From positions 1,178,001 through 1,242,000 of the forward strand of contig NZ_CP119559.1 in the NCBI RefSeq assembly GCF_029278565.1: a stretch of DNA of 64,000 bases, written 5' to 3'. Made by a program: the position numbers and the translations under genes. A model generated the notes under the pieces. It was not told the origin of the DNA. It saw only the letters and a list, made by a program, of their open reading frames with translations, and did no database searches. The DNA is from Haloarcula halophila. Its GTDB lineage: Archaea > Halobacteriota > Halobacteria > Halobacteriales > Haloarculaceae. The stretch's first letter is position 1, and every line of letters begins with the position of its first letter. Shown one piece after another: positions 1 through 7,045 of this stretch.

Positions 1-168
1 ACGTTGCAGTCCGGAGAGCTCCGTCCGCACACCGGGGCAACAGATCTCGCGTGGGGTGCAGAGTACGACAACCAGACCGCCTCGACTGCGACGCGAGTTA
101 TCAGCCTCAACAACGACACAAACGACGTCTGTGACCCGATCTGTTGGTTGGTGGTGCGCGCATGGTGA
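1..168 (+). CDS. 3' end of a secreted pilin-like protein (DUF7287-like position)
   Basis: An open frame runs from the first base to a TGA at 166-168; the 5' part lies outside the window. The 55 visible residues are polar and end in CDPICWLVVRAW, a hydrophobic tail followed by Trp, much like the end of the next protein (EVRLIVW). Two cysteines occur four residues apart near the C terminus. The stop overlaps the ATG of the next gene (ATG at 162), so it is the upstream member of the same operon. In other haloarchaea, as I recall, a DUF7287 protein precedes the DUF7288 gene; only the position and tail support that here. Confidence 0.6.
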   Translation, partial: TLQSGELRPHTGATDLAWGAEYDNQTASTATRVISLNNDTNDVCDPICWLVVRAW

Positions 169-764
169 GTGGCTCCCGTGGCCAGGCGTACACGCTCGAA
201 GGCGTCTTGGCGGCGATCCTCGTGATCTCGGCGACGGTGTTCGGGATCACTTCGATCGACACGCGTGCCTGGGAAGACGGAACGAGAGAGGAAACCCGTC
301 GGCTCGAAGCCCGGGCCGACGACCTATTGACTGTCAGCAAGAACACTGGCGCACTGGAAAACGCCGTGCTCTGCTACAATTCGGGCCGATCGCGCATCAA
401 CGGCAACAATTCGAGCAACCCGGCGGAGTTCGAGGAGATGCTCAACCTGACCTTCGACTCCCGGGGGAACCAGTACAACATATACTTCAACTACCTCAAC
501 GAGACCGGTGAGGAACGCGTCACGGAACTCGTCTCCGAGAACTCGCCCGCGAGTGCGAACCGCCCGTCGACAGGTGCCGCCACCGTGACACGGACCGTCG
601 CGATAACCGACGACATGCGGGTCCGGACCAACAATGCGTCGAAATCGAACGCCTGTGGGAACGAGGGACCGAGTGTAGAGTCGATATCGAGTTTCTACAT
701 CCCCGATGCCGATGACAAGACACAACTGTACAATCTGGTGGAGGTGCGACTGATCGTATGGTGA
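162..764 (+). CDS. Pilin-like secreted protein, DUF7288-like
   Basis: 200 residues. The N terminus carries RGQAYTLEGVL at residues 6-16 followed by a single hydrophobic helix to about residue 32. This resembles a class III (type IV pilin) signal: a basic/Gly site followed by a Thr-Leu-Glu and a hydrophobic stem. The rest is a polar outer domain with several N-x-S/T sequons and only two cysteines (LCY and ACG). I chose the ATG at 162 rather than an upstream TTG at 144 because 162 overlaps the preceding stop and sits directly before the signal. The family label DUF7288 is from memory. Function is unknown; it is probably a minor pilin or pseudopilin. Confidence 0.72.
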   Translation: MVSGSRGQAYTLEGVLAAILVISATVFGITSIDTRAWEDGTREETRRLEARADDLLTVSKNTGALENAVLCYNSGRSRINGNNSSNPAEFEEMLNLTFDSRGNQYNIYFNYLNETGEERVTELVSENSPASANRPSTGAATVTRTVAITDDMRVRTNNASKSNACGNEGPSVESISSFYIPDADDKTQLYNLVEVRLIVW

Positions 765-1678
765 GCGCTGCCGATTCCCGTGGCCAGTTGCTGCTCGTCG
801 GCGGGATCGCGATCGCGATCGTGTTCCTGCTGTCGATCATTCTCACCAACAGCCTCGTCGTGACCTCGTATACGGCGACCCCCGAGAGCGCCGACCGGAT
901 CGAAGAAGTCGAGGACCGCGAAACGGCCGTTCAGCAAGACCTCACGACCATCGCGACGGCAGTCCGCAGCAACACGACGTTCTCGGACTACAACTCCTCG
1001 CTCAACGCGTCGCTGCGGAACTACACGCGGTATCGAACGCGGGTCAGCGGCTCACAGTCGGGTGTGTACATCAATGCGACGTTGAACAGGACGGCGTCAG
1101 AGGGGAACATCACGAGCCAAACGGGTTCGAGCCCAACCAACTTTCAACGACCAGATCCAAGCGGACCTGGTCCAGGTTATGACTGGACAATAGCCAACGA
1201 CGTAGATCAAATAGTGCTGTTCAATCTCACACTATCCAATGTTATCGGTGGGCCATCGAATACGTTCACTATTGAAGTAACTGGTCAAGGTGGGAGCGGG
1301 AGTAGTTGGAGACTTGAAGCCGTACCATCCGGAGGGGATATTCGGATCGATACCACTACGGGAACAGATGTCTGCCCTTCGGGAACCAGCGATCCAGAGT
1401 TGAATCTGATTGCCGGCACCTGTAAAGGATCTAGTGGTCCTCCGGAGAATTTCACTACGTTTGAAGACACTTTGGATAAACCGTACAATATCGAGATTAG
1501 GAACGGAAACAAAGTCAATGATGGTAAGTACTGGTACGGTTCTACAGGTGAATTCCCGAGCACCAGTTACAATTCGGGCGATTACTCACCGTATCCAATC
1601 ACTCCCGCCGTCGATCTCACCTACACCGGCCCACAGACCGGCTACAACCGCACCATCATGCTGGAGAACAGCACATGA
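758..1678 (+). CDS. Pilin-like secreted protein, DUF7261-like, with a low-GC insert
   Basis: 306 residues, starting at an ATG that overlaps the previous TGA. N-terminal RGQLLLVGG (residues 8-16) leads into a hydrophobic segment to about residue 32, then a polar ectodomain rich in N-x-S/T sequons. There are two cysteines (DVCPSG and GTCKGS). Roughly from base 1130 to 1600 the codon use changes: many A/T third positions, against G/C in the gene's start and end and in all neighbours. This segment encodes the distal domain and looks like a replaced or fast-evolving block. The family label is from memory; the role is probably as a surface-filament component. Confidence 0.72.
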   Translation: MVSAADSRGQLLLVGGIAIAIVFLLSIILTNSLVVTSYTATPESADRIEEVEDRETAVQQDLTTIATAVRSNTTFSDYNSSLNASLRNYTRYRTRVSGSQSGVYINATLNRTASEGNITSQTGSSPTNFQRPDPSGPGPGYDWTIANDVDQIVLFNLTLSNVIGGPSNTFTIEVTGQGGSGSSWRLEAVPSGGDIRIDTTTGTDVCPSGTSDPELNLIAGTCKGSSGPPENFTTFEDTLDKPYNIEIRNGNKVNDGKYWYGSTGEFPSTSYNSGDYSPYPITPAVDLTYTGPQTGYNRTIMLENST

Positions 1679-2139
1679 TTGGGTCGTTGTTCGCCGACAC
1701 ACGCGGTGTCTCGCCGGCGGTTACACAGGCGTTGACCATCGGCATCTCGACGCTCCTGGTCACCGGTCTGTTGATCGCCGGTGGGTCGCTGATCGAGGGA
1801 CAGACCGAAAACGTCGCCCGCGAGGGCCTGATCGACATCGGTTCGGGTGTCGCAACCGATCTGGTCCGACTCGACCAGTTCAACACGTCGACGCTGAACT
1901 CCGACATCGAGTTCCGGTCGCGCTATCCCGAGCGCGTCGCCGGCGAGCAGTACCGGATCTCGCTCGTTCCGACGAGCAGCCAGACCAGAATCTACGTCAA
2001 CTCGACCGTGGAAGATTACTCGACGGTCGTCCGGTTCGAGAACCAGAGCCGTATCTGTTCGGGGACCGCCGACGGCGGCGCGGTCACGGTCCGGTTCAAC
2101 ACGTCGAGTAGCGCACAGTGCATGGAGATCAGAGACTGA
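1675..2139 (+). CDS. Pilin-like secreted protein, DUF7266-like
   Basis: 154 residues. The start ATG overlaps the preceding stop (ATGA). RGVSPAVTQALTIGI at residues 10-24 opens a hydrophobic stem to about residue 38; RGVSP is the motif seen at haloarchaeal pilin cleavage sites. After the stem come a short helix (residues 44-65) and a beta-rich head with two cysteines (RICSG and QCMEI), probably disulfide-linked outside the cell. Size and layout fit a minor pilin. Translational coupling to both neighbours suggests fixed stoichiometry. Exact family name uncertain. Confidence 0.7.
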   Translation: MIGSLFADTRGVSPAVTQALTIGISTLLVTGLLIAGGSLIEGQTENVAREGLIDIGSGVATDLVRLDQFNTSTLNSDIEFRSRYPERVAGEQYRISLVPTSSQTRIYVNSTVEDYSTVVRFENQSRICSGTADGGAVTVRFNTSSSAQCMEIRD

Positions 2140-2903
2140 TGATATCGAGATACGCTCCCGATGGGACCGGTCGCGCAGTGTCGGATCTAGTCGCGTTCAC
2201 ACTCGTCTTTAGCATCATCATCAGCTCGATCGGTTTTCTCACAGTCGGCGGGTTCACGGCGCTCGAAGGCGTCAGAGACGGCGCCGAAACGAACACTGCG
2301 GAAGCGACGATGGTCGGCTACGCGGAGACGCTATCCGACCACAGAAACGAGCGTGCGCCGCGGCGTGAGACGACGATCAAACTCCAGGGCCATTCACTCG
2401 CCCGCCAGCCGTCATCCTTTGTCGTCAACGTATCGGCCGTCCCAGGAAACGAGACGGTCTCGACAGGGGCACTCGTCAGGACGACCAGTAGCGACACGGA
2501 GTTAGTGTACACAAGCGGTGCGGTGTTCCGTGTCGAAGACAACGGTGGCGTCCGGGTCGTTCGCGCGCCACCGTTCCGTTGTGATGCCAACGGCGCTCAT
2601 CTGTCGTTCGTACAGGTGATCGGCGATCTCAACCAGTCCTCCTCCGGTCGGGTGACACTCCGGAGTCAACTCCAGGACCGGTCGCTGTACTTCCCGAATC
2701 AAACGTCCGCATCCGCTGCGACAGACAACGGGACTGTCAGCGTCAACGTCAGCGGGACCGAGTATACGGACGCATGGAAACGGACGTTCGACCGCGATCT
2801 TGGCTGGACCGCTGTCAGTGGAACCGGCGGGACGTACGAATGTTCGGGAATCGAACAGGCCGTCGTCGAGAACACGTCGATCGATATCCAAGCGGTCTCC
2901 TGA
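2139..2903 (+). CDS. Pilin-like secreted protein, DUF7289-like
   Basis: 254 residues when started at the ATG at 2139, which overlaps the previous stop as TGATG; an in-frame ATG at 2118 lies inside the previous gene and is less likely. GRAVSDLVAFTLVFSI (residues 11-26) is a pilin-type signal and stem, followed by EGVRDGAETNTAEATM, a helix typical of this family, and a beta-rich ectodomain with two cysteines (FRCDAN and YECSG). Last gene of the left-end operon. It resembles the N-terminal part of the giant convergent protein at 3242-7045, which also has a pilin stem followed by a short helix. Confidence 0.7.
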   Translation: MISRYAPDGTGRAVSDLVAFTLVFSIIISSIGFLTVGGFTALEGVRDGAETNTAEATMVGYAETLSDHRNERAPRRETTIKLQGHSLARQPSSFVVNVSAVPGNETVSTGALVRTTSSDTELVYTSGAVFRVEDNGGVRVVRAPPFRCDANGAHLSFVQVIGDLNQSSSGRVTLRSQLQDRSLYFPNQTSASAATDNGTVSVNVSGTEYTDAWKRTFDRDLGWTAVSGTGGTYECSGIEQAVVENTSIDIQAVS

Positions 2904-3241: not shown

Positions 3242-6200
3242 CTACGGCGCGGTCACGTTGATGACTTCGGAGTCGACGTTGACCGGCGAGTCCTCACGCG
3301 TACTGACGCCGTCGGGGACTTTCTGGAGGAACAGCTCGCCACGCACAGTGGTGTTCTCGCCACTCTCTGCGCTCTGCGTGTCGTTGTAGACCCGTATCTC
3401 GTAGTCGTAGGTGTTCCCTGTCGAGAGTGAACTGACGTCGAAGCCGTATTGTGTCGGTTGGGTTGCACCGGTGTACACCGTCTCGGTCTTCGAACTGTCG
3501 ACGACCGTCGTCCCGTCGTCCTTCGAGATCCGGAGACGGACCTCTCGCTCGTCGGAGACTCGACCGACGTTTTCGACACCGACGTTCATCCGCGAGATAC
3601 GTCCGCGGCGGACGATCTGGGTTCCGGGCGTGTAATCTTTCGTCCCGATGTTGATGTTTGCCGGTTCGACATCCGACTGGCCGAGCTCGATGGACTGGTT
3701 CCCGCTCGTCGTGTTGGGCGTCGTCACGTAGTAGCTGTAGTTCCCTTCACGGCCCGGAGTTGCGGTGATCTCGAAGGTGAGTCCTGTGCTGGTACCCGCC
3801 GAGATCGTCCGCGTCTTCGTCACGGAGTAGCTGTTTCCGGTGTCGGTGTTCTCGTAGACCAACGTCAGGTCCATGTTGGTCCCGTCTCTGGACCCGATGT
3901 TGTCGATCTGTGTGCTGATAACCGGGTTACTGTCGTCGATATCGTCGGTGCCGTTGTTGATTTCGGCGACTGCCGGCCCCTCCATCTTTGTCACCTGATA
4001 GTACGGGCCGCCGGCGCTCCCGATCCGTAGCTGCTGGGCCTGTGAATCGTCGGTCACTCCGTCGCTTCCCCGTGCCTCCACTTCCCAGTTGTACGTCCCG
4101 GGGCCGTAGCTCGCCGTCGGCAGGGTGATCGTAACGTCCGTCTCCTCGCCGGGATCGAGTACGCCCGTGGTTTCCGGACTCTGTGGTGAACCGTCAAACG
4201 CCGGATGGATACTGGCCTGTCCGGCCTTCTCACCGGTGTTGTTGATCGTCACGTCGACGCTGGTGTCTCCCGAACCGCTGCTGACCCGTGCCGGTGCGTC
4301 CACGTCGGTGATGTTGAACGTCGCAGGTTGGACGTTCTCACGCTCTGTACTTACGATCTTCAGCGACACGACGGCGTCGTTGTAGTCCGGGTCGTTCGGT
4401 TGATCGGCGTTTTCGGGCAGCGCGTTCCGCTCCGATAGCTCGTACATGAAGATGTACTGATCTTCGGCGAGCTGGAGGTTCCCGTCTTCGTCGATGCTCG
4501 CGTTGACCGTATCGAGCATGTCGTCCAGGCCGAGTTGGAACGCACTCGCTTGTCCGAGTGCTGGCGGTTTGTCGCCGTTGCCCAGGATAATAACGTTGCT
4601 CGAACTCTTCGTGTTCGTGATATCGATCCGTTCACCTCCCCAGTCGGAACAGGTGTACGCGTCCAGTTCGTATTCGGTCCCCTGGAAGGTCCGATAGTGG
4701 TTGTACCCGTCGTCTCTGTAGTCCCGACAATAGTATGACGTTCCCCAGACGGAGAGCTTCGACCCGGCGGTGACGTTCATCTCTTTGACGTACGGATTAT
4801 CGATGGTCTCCCGATACATCCGCTGCTCTGCATGCGGGTGGTTGATGTTGCCACCGTATTCGCCGGTCCAGAGCGGGGAAATGTCTGTTGTCGTCTCGTT
4901 CTCGACGTATGTCCGGACTGTTGTCGGCGCAGCGATCTCGTATCTGCCGTAGTAGTCCGTACCGTTGCCCTCAAGTTCCGAACCGCCGGCGACGATCTCG
5001 ATTCGCGCGTCTTTCGTAAATTCGAGGAACTCGCTTCCGTCGCTGTCTTCACCTTCTTCGACACCGGACCCTTCCGCTCTGACCTCCAGAATCTGACTCA
5101 ACGAGCCGTTCTCGGTCTCGGCTTCGATCGTGTTCTGGCCCATGTCGAAATCAGCCGAGTTGTTCTCGACAGTCGTCGTGAACGTCTTTGTCTTCTCCTG
5201 GCCGGGGTTCAGCGTCACGTCCCACTCTTCGAGGTCGGAGTTCGTCTCCTGATTCTCGAGGTCGAGTGTCTGTTCGTCGCTGATTCCGCCGCTGTTCGTT
5301 ACGGTGACACCGATCGTGACATCGTTGGTCTCCCTGACGCTGCTGGGATCGATCTCCAGACGGTTGATGACGAAATTCGGCGCCGCGTTCCCGGCTTTGA
5401 CGTAGAACGTGCTCCGCTGGGTCTGGTTCGGCGTCGTCAGGGTCACGCTGTAGGTGCCGGTGTTCGAGAACGTATGCGTGACCGATCGGGTCGCCGTATC
5501 GGTGTTTGCCAGCGTCTCGGTCCCGTTGGTGCTGGCGACGACTGTCCCGGTGTCCTCGTTCTTGACCGTCGCGTTGACGTAGCCGGTCAACGTCTGGTTG
5601 CCGACGTTCTCGACGGTCGCCGAGAACGTCTCCGTATCGCCCCGCGTTGGCGTGTTGTAGCTCAGGCTGTTGATCTCAAAGCGACCGGGGGGTCCGACGA
5701 CGAACGGGACCTGCATCGAGTCACTGCCGACAGTGAAGTTCAGTTGATGCTTCCCCTCGCGATTGATCGGCAGGGCGTCGCTGATATCCTGGCTGACGTT
5801 CTCGCCGGGATGGACCGTCGCACTCCAGGTGGTGTTGGGTTGGCCAGTGACGTTGAGTCCGATCGTCGCCGTCTTGGTCATGCCGCCGGTGTTGCTGACC
5901 CAGACGTGGCCGTCAGTCGTGTTCCCGACGGTCGTCCCGGTCGAGATATTTTCCGCGGAGAACCCGACGTTCGGAGTGGCCGATGGACTGTTGAACTGGA
6001 CTTTCGTCGTCGAGTTATCGTCGGCCGCGACCGTGACGTTACGCGGTCTCGGGGGGCTCCCGGAGACGATATCACTGTCGTCGAGCGTGAAGGTGACCGT
6101 CTTGCTGGCCTTTCCTGCGAGAGTCACGTCCTTGGAAGTATCGACCGTCCCGTTGTCGTAGACGAACCTGACCTCCTTCGTCGCATCCAGTCCGCCAACG

Positions 6201-7045
6201 TTCGTGATTTCGGCACTGACCTCGTAGTCTGACCCCGGACCCGGTGTCACGGTGACGTTTTTCGCCCGGAATTCGGGATCGGACACGTCACCAAGCTGGA
6301 ACGTGATCGTAACGTTGTCGTGGGGTTCGGCGGGCATTCCGCCTTCGGCGCTCACGTTCACGCGCTTGTCGTCGTAGTTGTTCCGGGCCCAGTCCGCCCA
6401 TGCGCGTGCGAACGTGCTGTTGCTTATTTTCAGCGATGCGTTGTCGACCGTCGTCGGCGAGCAAGCGCCGCTGCCGTACAGTTCGCGGCTGATGTTACGT
6501 TGCTCGTTGACTTCCTTCGTAACGTTCGAAGTCGCTTTCAGCGTTCCGCTGGAGGTGAGGTCCCCGGTGACGTTCGTGAACGAAACCGAGAGCGAGCCGT
6601 TGTCGTAGTTCAGGTCCGGCGGCGCACTCATCACCGCACCAGCTTCGGTCATCTTCCAGACACCACCCGCCTCGTACGCAGTAACAGTGTCTTTCCCGTC
6701 GTGTCTGATCGTTCCCATCTGCCGGGGGCCTGCCATGCAGTTAGCGTCCCCGTTTAGCGTCAGACTGTAGGTCGCGTTCCGGTTGATAGAGACGTCTTTG
6801 TCGACCTCGTCGCTGATCTCGAACGTCTGTCCATCCTCGTCGGACTGTTGGAAGACACTGTCGACTTTCAGCATCGTCTCCTCTGAGATCTCCTCGTTCG
6901 AGTCGGCATTTAGGTCCTCCACAACGGCAGACCCAGCCAGGAGAACGACAGCGATACCCACCATAGTGATACCGATGAGAAGTACCGCCGCCACGACAGT
7001 CGACATCCCACGCTTATCGATCGCGTTACTCCCCTCTAAAGTCAT
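3242..7045 (-). CDS. Giant pilin-headed surface protein with CARDB-like repeats
   Basis: 1267 residues. Residues 11-40 (KRGMSTVVAAVLLIGITM and on) look like an archaeal pilin signal with a Gly-13/Met-14 cleavage site and hydrophobic stem. Residues 44-60 are an acidic helix. The rest is extracellular: a head with two cysteines (ANCMAG and GACSPT), several tandem beta domains with NVG/NTGG and TVTF-type strands that match CARDB repeats, a central region with two more cysteines (YYCRDY, YTCSDW), then further CARDB-like repeats to the end. There are exactly four cysteines and dozens of N-x-S/T sequons. A leaderless promoter precedes it. It could be an adhesin tip or very large minor pilin. The link to the convergent pilin operon is inferred from position. 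Confidence 0.72.
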   Translation of the reverse strand: MTLEGSNAIDKRGMSTVVAAVLLIGITMVGIAVVLLAGSAVVEDLNADSNEEISEETMLKVDSVFQQSDEDGQTFEISDEVDKDVSINRNATYSLTLNGDANCMAGPRQMGTIRHDGKDTVTAYEAGGVWKMTEAGAVMSAPPDLNYDNGSLSVSFTNVTGDLTSSGTLKATSNVTKEVNEQRNISRELYGSGACSPTTVDNASLKISNSTFARAWADWARNNYDDKRVNVSAEGGMPAEPHDNVTITFQLGDVSDPEFRAKNVTVTPGPGSDYEVSAEITNVGGLDATKEVRFVYDNGTVDTSKDVTLAGKASKTVTFTLDDSDIVSGSPPRPRNVTVAADDNSTTKVQFNSPSATPNVGFSAENISTGTTVGNTTDGHVWVSNTGGMTKTATIGLNVTGQPNTTWSATVHPGENVSQDISDALPINREGKHQLNFTVGSDSMQVPFVVGPPGRFEINSLSYNTPTRGDTETFSATVENVGNQTLTGYVNATVKNEDTGTVVASTNGTETLANTDTATRSVTHTFSNTGTYSVTLTTPNQTQRSTFYVKAGNAAPNFVINRLEIDPSSVRETNDVTIGVTVTNSGGISDEQTLDLENQETNSDLEEWDVTLNPGQEKTKTFTTTVENNSADFDMGQNTIEAETENGSLSQILEVRAEGSGVEEGEDSDGSEFLEFTKDARIEIVAGGSELEGNGTDYYGRYEIAAPTTVRTYVENETTTDISPLWTGEYGGNINHPHAEQRMYRETIDNPYVKEMNVTAGSKLSVWGTSYYCRDYRDDGYNHYRTFQGTEYELDAYTCSDWGGERIDITNTKSSSNVIILGNGDKPPALGQASAFQLGLDDMLDTVNASIDEDGNLQLAEDQYIFMYELSERNALPENADQPNDPDYNDAVVSLKIVSTERENVQPATFNITDVDAPARVSSGSGDTSVDVTINNTGEKAGQASIHPAFDGSPQSPETTGVLDPGEETDVTITLPTASYGPGTYNWEVEARGSDGVTDDSQAQQLRIGSAGGPYYQVTKMEGPAVAEINNGTDDIDDSNPVISTQIDNIGSRDGTNMDLTLVYENTDTGNSYSVTKTRTISAGTSTGLTFEITATPGREGNYSYYVTTPNTTSGNQSIELGQSDVEPANINIGTKDYTPGTQIVRRGRISRMNVGVENVGRVSDEREVRLRISKDDGTTVVDSSKTETVYTGATQPTQYGFDVSSLSTGNTYDYEIRVYNDTQSAESGENTTVRGELFLQKVPDGVSTREDSPVNVDSEVINVTAP

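Follow-up and report, generated by a model that had tools for sequence, protein, structure and literature searches.

Discrete distal-domain alleles in a type IV pilin-like gene of Haloarcula halophila and their exchange between species

The window, that is the whole stretch of 64,000 nucleotides of Haloarcula halophila DNA that was analysed, begins within an operon of pilin-like genes, one of which carries the feature described here. The positions below are those of the window except for pilB and pilC, which lie upstream of it.

L032:9109-14168, upstream of the window: pilB and pilC/tadC of the operon, with T2SSE and T2SSF domains
1-168, plus strand: 3' end of a DUF7287 pilin-like gene
162-764, plus strand: DUF7288 pilin-like gene of the same operon, without an allele cliff
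758-1678, plus strand: DUF7261-like type IV pilin-like gene of 306 amino acids (open reading frame with a PF23922 match; prepilin-type N-terminus SRG followed by QLLLVGGIAIAIVFLL)
758-1117, plus strand: conserved N-terminal part of that gene (signal, membrane helix and stem), with high GC3 and 75-92% identity to the nearest congener
1100-1125, plus strand: left recombination junction zone from codon difference maps, directly after the conserved motif NATLN.TAS.G (NATLNESASLG in other species)
1118-1603, plus strand: distal (head) domain, replaced and multi-allelic, with both cysteines, GC3 0.44 and 32-47% identity to the nearest congener
1590-1606, plus strand: right recombination junction zone at the motif YPxxPAxDxTY, shifting by up to about 30 codons among species pairs
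1604-1675, plus strand: conserved C-terminal 24 codons, 88% identical to the nearest congener and following the flank phylogeny
1675-2139, plus strand: DUF7266 pilin-like gene of the same operon, without an allele cliff
2139-2903, plus strand: DUF7289 pilin-like gene, end of the operon

The genes are co-oriented and contiguous in the order pilB-pilC-DUF7287-7288-7261-7266-7289, which is conserved in the genus, and the locus combines a secretion ATPase, a TadC-like membrane protein and pilin-like genes as archaeal pilB-pilC/TadC pilin operons do. In haloarchaeal pilus loci, the genes for the ATPase and TadC are accompanied by pilins of several families (Makarova et al. 2016, PMC4858521), and deletion of pilB1-C1 in Haloferax volcanii reduces adhesion (PMC6491452). 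By analogy, the operon described here may do similar work to pilB1-C1.

Read directly from the sequence, the DUF7261-like protein has SRG followed by Q and then a hydrophobic stretch, as in a prepilin signal. Its match to PF23922 (DUF7261) reaches 26.0 bits (E 1.3e-5; curated cut-off 27 bits) and is confined to the conserved N-terminal part (residues 6-116), while a paralog in the same genome scores 39.3. No mention of DUF7261 by name was found in the open-access literature searched. Single-sequence structure prediction gave a mean pLDDT of 36.7 with the N-terminal helix alone fairly confident, and from the general architecture of pilins the variable distal domain would be the exposed head of the protein.

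The original prediction had described a low-GC block at about 1130-1600 with both cysteines inside it, and had offered local replacement by recombination or diversifying evolution of an exposed surface, as in phase- or antigen-variable pilins, as explanations. When GC3 is plotted along the gene it is indeed not uniform. The best two-level split of 758-1678 delimits a block at 1118-1603, within about 15 bp of the predicted coordinates, with a GC3 of 0.44 compared with 0.86 in the remainder of the gene; the log-likelihood gain of this split is 31, and the highest of 60 permutations reached 10.9. Amino-acid choice is not the cause because fourfold-degenerate codons show the same drop (0.43 inside the block, 0.88 outside). 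Local GC drops from some 60% to 47.7%, and no other 450-bp segment of the 64 kb is below 50% GC (mean 66.5%). Cysteines 206 and 222, the only two in the protein, both lie in the block as predicted. The dip belongs in part to the domain pool as a whole, because the domain is lower in GC3 or somewhat AT-richer than the remaining gene in all 22 species compared.

Mosaic breakpoints, looked for near 1130 and 1600, are present both in comparison with the nearest congener (G020) and between related species. The region from about position -7000 to the end of the operon is syntenic between H. halophila and G020, with mostly 80-95% DNA identity. In the pil operon itself identity is about 75-98%, sinks to 43-55% at about 1100-1600 and then returns to at least 83%, with recovery over the last 24 codons and the genes that follow. 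In the protein, successive 40-residue blocks of the N-terminal part are 92, 85 and 75% identical, the variable block 32-47% and the last 24 residues 88%. These identity breakpoints coincide with the GC3 breakpoints. The G020 version of the domain has a host-like GC3 of 0.81, which makes H. halophila the likely recipient; a single clade of the H. halophila and G020 domains was not rejected on the short distal tree (p-AU 0.14). Codon difference maps for five species pairs place an abrupt left junction at codons 113-120 and a right junction that varies within some 30 codons, the pattern that homologous exchange in the conserved ends, and not site-specific recombination, would produce. Local replacement by recombination is thus strongly supported by an identity cliff at the GC3 breakpoints and by other discrete alleles in related species.

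The operon copy with a complete gene was compared in 22 species of the genus including H. halophila, with one genome per species. Using 65% identity of the distal domain as the threshold for an allele class, the domain falls into 12 discrete classes: class A with six species, B and C with three each, another with two, and eight singletons. Domain identity is mostly 30-55% between classes and 69-94% within them, and the remaining parts of the gene are 80-98% identical. Within a clade of 15 species the domain is at most 55% identical in 84 of the 105 pairs and at least 65% identical in the other 21, with no pair in between. Mean identity over the same 105 pairs is 0.48 for the distal domain compared with 0.90 for DUF7288, 0.87 for both the N-terminal part and the C-terminal tail, and 0.88 for DUF7266. 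Two sister species (L013 and L014) have flanking proteins that are 97-99% identical and domains that are 35% identical, while another pair (L005 and L009) has flanks of 81-88% identity and domains of 88%. Both cysteines together with F37, G102 and G146 of the block are common to all 19 aligned alleles, so the variants are alleles of one domain and not unrelated inserts. A 10-genome plot of the 10-kb operon region has one deep identity trough within a gene, at this domain (0.49-0.55). A similar test in another genus (G164) gave moderate distal variation without clear class structure.

The grouping by domain is not shared by the flanks. On a tree of flank DNA, the AU test rejected classes A, B and C as clades (p 1.2e-5, 0.005 and 1.3e-6, respectively), and a protein-level flank tree rejected A and C but not B; these flank trees are short. 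Since it is the domain that defines the classes, the tests address no more than whether the same grouping exists in the flanks. At least eight switches of class label are needed on the 15-species flank tree, where shuffled labels need 8.4 on average. Flank identity is correlated with identity of the C-terminal tail (rho 0.72) and of the N-terminal part (rho 0.50), and with domain identity the Mantel rho is 0.09 (p 0.22). Discrete forms, absence of intermediates, conserved ends and forms that depart from the flank phylogeny are therefore all found in this domain. The comparisons show that it exists in the genus as discrete, mutually exclusive and still homologous versions between a conserved stem and tail, and that these versions have passed from one species to another independently of the genes on either side.

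A second pilin-like cluster in the same genome (L032:534-3145, minus strand, roughly 13.5 to 10.9 kb before the window begins) contains paralogs of DUF7287, DUF7288, DUF7261 and DUF7266, without a hypervariable head. In the same species, the distal part of the paralogous DUF7261 is 70-99% identical in 66 pairs when G004, an outlier over the whole gene, is left out; the remaining low pairs all involve G004. The paralog also has no GC3 dip in the H. halophila genome (0.82 vs 0.84). With neither the divergence nor the dip in the paralog, the effect is specific to the focal locus.

We consider it highly probable (about 0.85) that the low-GC block was imported as an allele of a surface-exposed, multi-allelic pilin head that is swapped between species by homologous recombination via the conserved ends. 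Haloarchaea swap chromosomal DNA through cell fusion. Incoming foreign DNA could then recombine by ordinary homologous recombination, with the conserved stem, the tail and the neighbouring genes as probable anchors. H. halophila would have received its version from a lower-GC lineage, and recently, since the base composition of the block has not yet adjusted. A search for the donor by DNA within the genus gave no match, and by protein in 391 genomes of the class and 146 of the family the nearest domain was only 47% identical. The plasmid search gave nothing close, its one match being a distant full-length homolog (27%) in Haloferax mediterranei, and the domain was not found in the phage search. 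It is consequently the base composition that points to a recent import from a low-GC lineage.

Fast diversification of an exposed surface by point mutation alone, in which relaxed codon choice lowers GC3, would suit a surface domain whose GC3 is slightly lower in all congeners. This is a very unlikely explanation because the identities are bimodal, the same class occurs in distant species while sisters differ, and the junctions are abrupt at codon level. Moreover, dN/dS within classes is about 0.05-0.25, which indicates purifying selection on the domain; together with the lack of intermediate forms, this disfavours the gradual diversifying evolution that the original prediction had offered as an alternative. 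The classes are stable forms and not the product of runaway change. Another possible source of shared classes is ancient trans-species polymorphism, in which alleles from the ancestor of the genus were sorted by loss along lineages and not swapped. In several pairs the within-class domain dS is close to the flank dS, so some of the sharing may be vertical. As an account of the whole pattern this is very unlikely: the sisters L013 and L014 differ in class at a flank dS of about 0.05-0.1, a foreign composition is still present in the H. halophila block, and, with one copy per genome, the N-terminal part, the C-terminal tail and the neighbours would not have stayed near-identical under sorting unless recombination had also taken place within the gene.

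The conserved ends around a variable, cysteine-bearing core resemble gonococcal pilE in outline, and would suit antigenic or phase variation within the genome that draws on silent cassettes or inverts a segment (compare pilE and shufflons). Silent partial copies in the same genome, which characterise the pilE type, were not found: neither a protein search (E up to 10) nor a profile of 19 alleles (E 10) revealed the domain a second time in the 4-contig genome of H. halophila. Nor do the second matches of the profile in the congeners resemble a cassette array, being weak (E 4e-13 at best) and mostly located at the regular full-length paralog. With no silent cassettes found in this genome or in the congeners, a pilE-type reading is highly improbable, and the phase- or antigen-variable pilin of the original prediction is not supported in that intragenomic sense. 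An assembly chimera or contamination has a negligible probability even with a contamination estimate of 3.2% for the genome, because the reading frame and the domain homology are intact over both junctions, the conserved cysteines are present and the same architecture is found in many other species.

The exchange of heads between species works like the hypervariable regions of bacterial flagellins and not like gonococcal pilE. It shares with pilE/pilS a variable cysteine-bearing pilin head, a conserved N-terminus and change driven by recombination, but no silent copies were found here and the exchange is apparently between genomes. The H-antigen forms of bacterial flagellins have diversity at two levels (PMC7018530). 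As in those forms, the ends are conserved and the surface-exposed middle occurs as discrete forms without intermediates, variation within a form is small, replacement is by recombination in the conserved ends, and donors have not been traced (PMC7018530). Flagellin is a non-homologous protein, however, and the one described here is pilin-like and encoded in a pilB/pilC operon of archaea; its alleles still align, with shared cysteines, and span species, whereas flagellin forms are generally species-specific (PMC7018530). For archaeal flagellins the same survey found low horizontal transfer (PMC7018530).

Among archaeal systems, the VARTIG module of Thermococcales (PMC8416519) is likewise a surface protein in which the distal domain, there of Ig type, is hypervariable by recombination between species, departs from the species tree and has conserved cysteines. 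The VARTIG combination of a large multi-Ig protein, a variable C-terminal domain and variable downstream genes is not seen here, where a pilin-like protein of 306 amino acids lies in a fixed operon with no extra genes; the VARTIG authors reported no counterpart from their search of other archaea (PMC8416519). The homeocassettes of Halorubrum ezzemoulense are also haloarchaeal, and islands 25/26 are a type IV pilus system next to tadC with mutually exclusive, divergent versions between conserved genes (PMC11078007). They differ in being multi-gene islands with two versions in one species, compared with one domain inside a gene with many versions across species. PilA1 and PilA2 of Sulfolobus islandicus are archaeal pilins that are naturally diversified too, but at codon level, and whole-domain swapping is not mentioned in the abstract (PMC7217056).

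The open-access literature searched contained no description of an archaeal pilin whose head is multi-allelic and recombining. To our knowledge, recombining allele series of surface proteins are familiar from the flagellins and pilins of bacteria and hardly known in archaea. The diversity is probably maintained by negative frequency-dependent selection acting on the exposed side of the pilus, for which the likeliest agents would be viruses that use pili or the recognition of partners in aggregation. Virus escape would be the leading candidate because pilins of S. islandicus are required for infection by several viruses (PMC7217056), and partner recognition would be the other. Only tentatively can a serotype-like allotype system on archaeal pili be proposed, with one head domain in many exchangeable alleles across species under balancing selection that might decide virus binding or aggregation and mating, and might spread by pilus-mediated cell contact. 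Within one pilin-like protein the variation is confined to some 160 residues, its neighbours are conserved and a paralog that lacks such variation serves as internal control, so that head swaps in a tractable haloarchaeon could put the drivers of archaeal surface diversity, whether viruses, recognition or mating, to a direct test.

Some further variation was observed in and around these genes. In ten congeners the DUF7287 gene has a milder trough (identity 0.70) roughly 700-850 bp before DUF7261 begins, at about -90 to 60, and the 10-genome plot has a further low-identity stretch downstream of the operon. A match to the head domain is absent in several congeners, e.g. G014, G022, G029, G002, G030 and G010; this copy of the operon may therefore belong to the accessory genome. 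The paralogous DUF7261 of G023 and G015 (L134, L135) is closer to that of G014 and G030 than to that of their own clade, which suggests a possible replacement of the whole gene or cluster. In G024 (L022:1495-3240) the DUF7261 reading frame stays open for about 580 residues in all and ends in a beta-propeller-like tail that is rich in repeats, with DxDGDG motifs. Convergent to the operon, at 3242-7045 on the minus strand, lies a gene for a protein of 1267 amino acids whose pilin N-terminus resembles DUF7289/DUF7266 and is followed by a very long extension; around 4526-4975 the DNA identity to G020 dips to 0.62-0.71.
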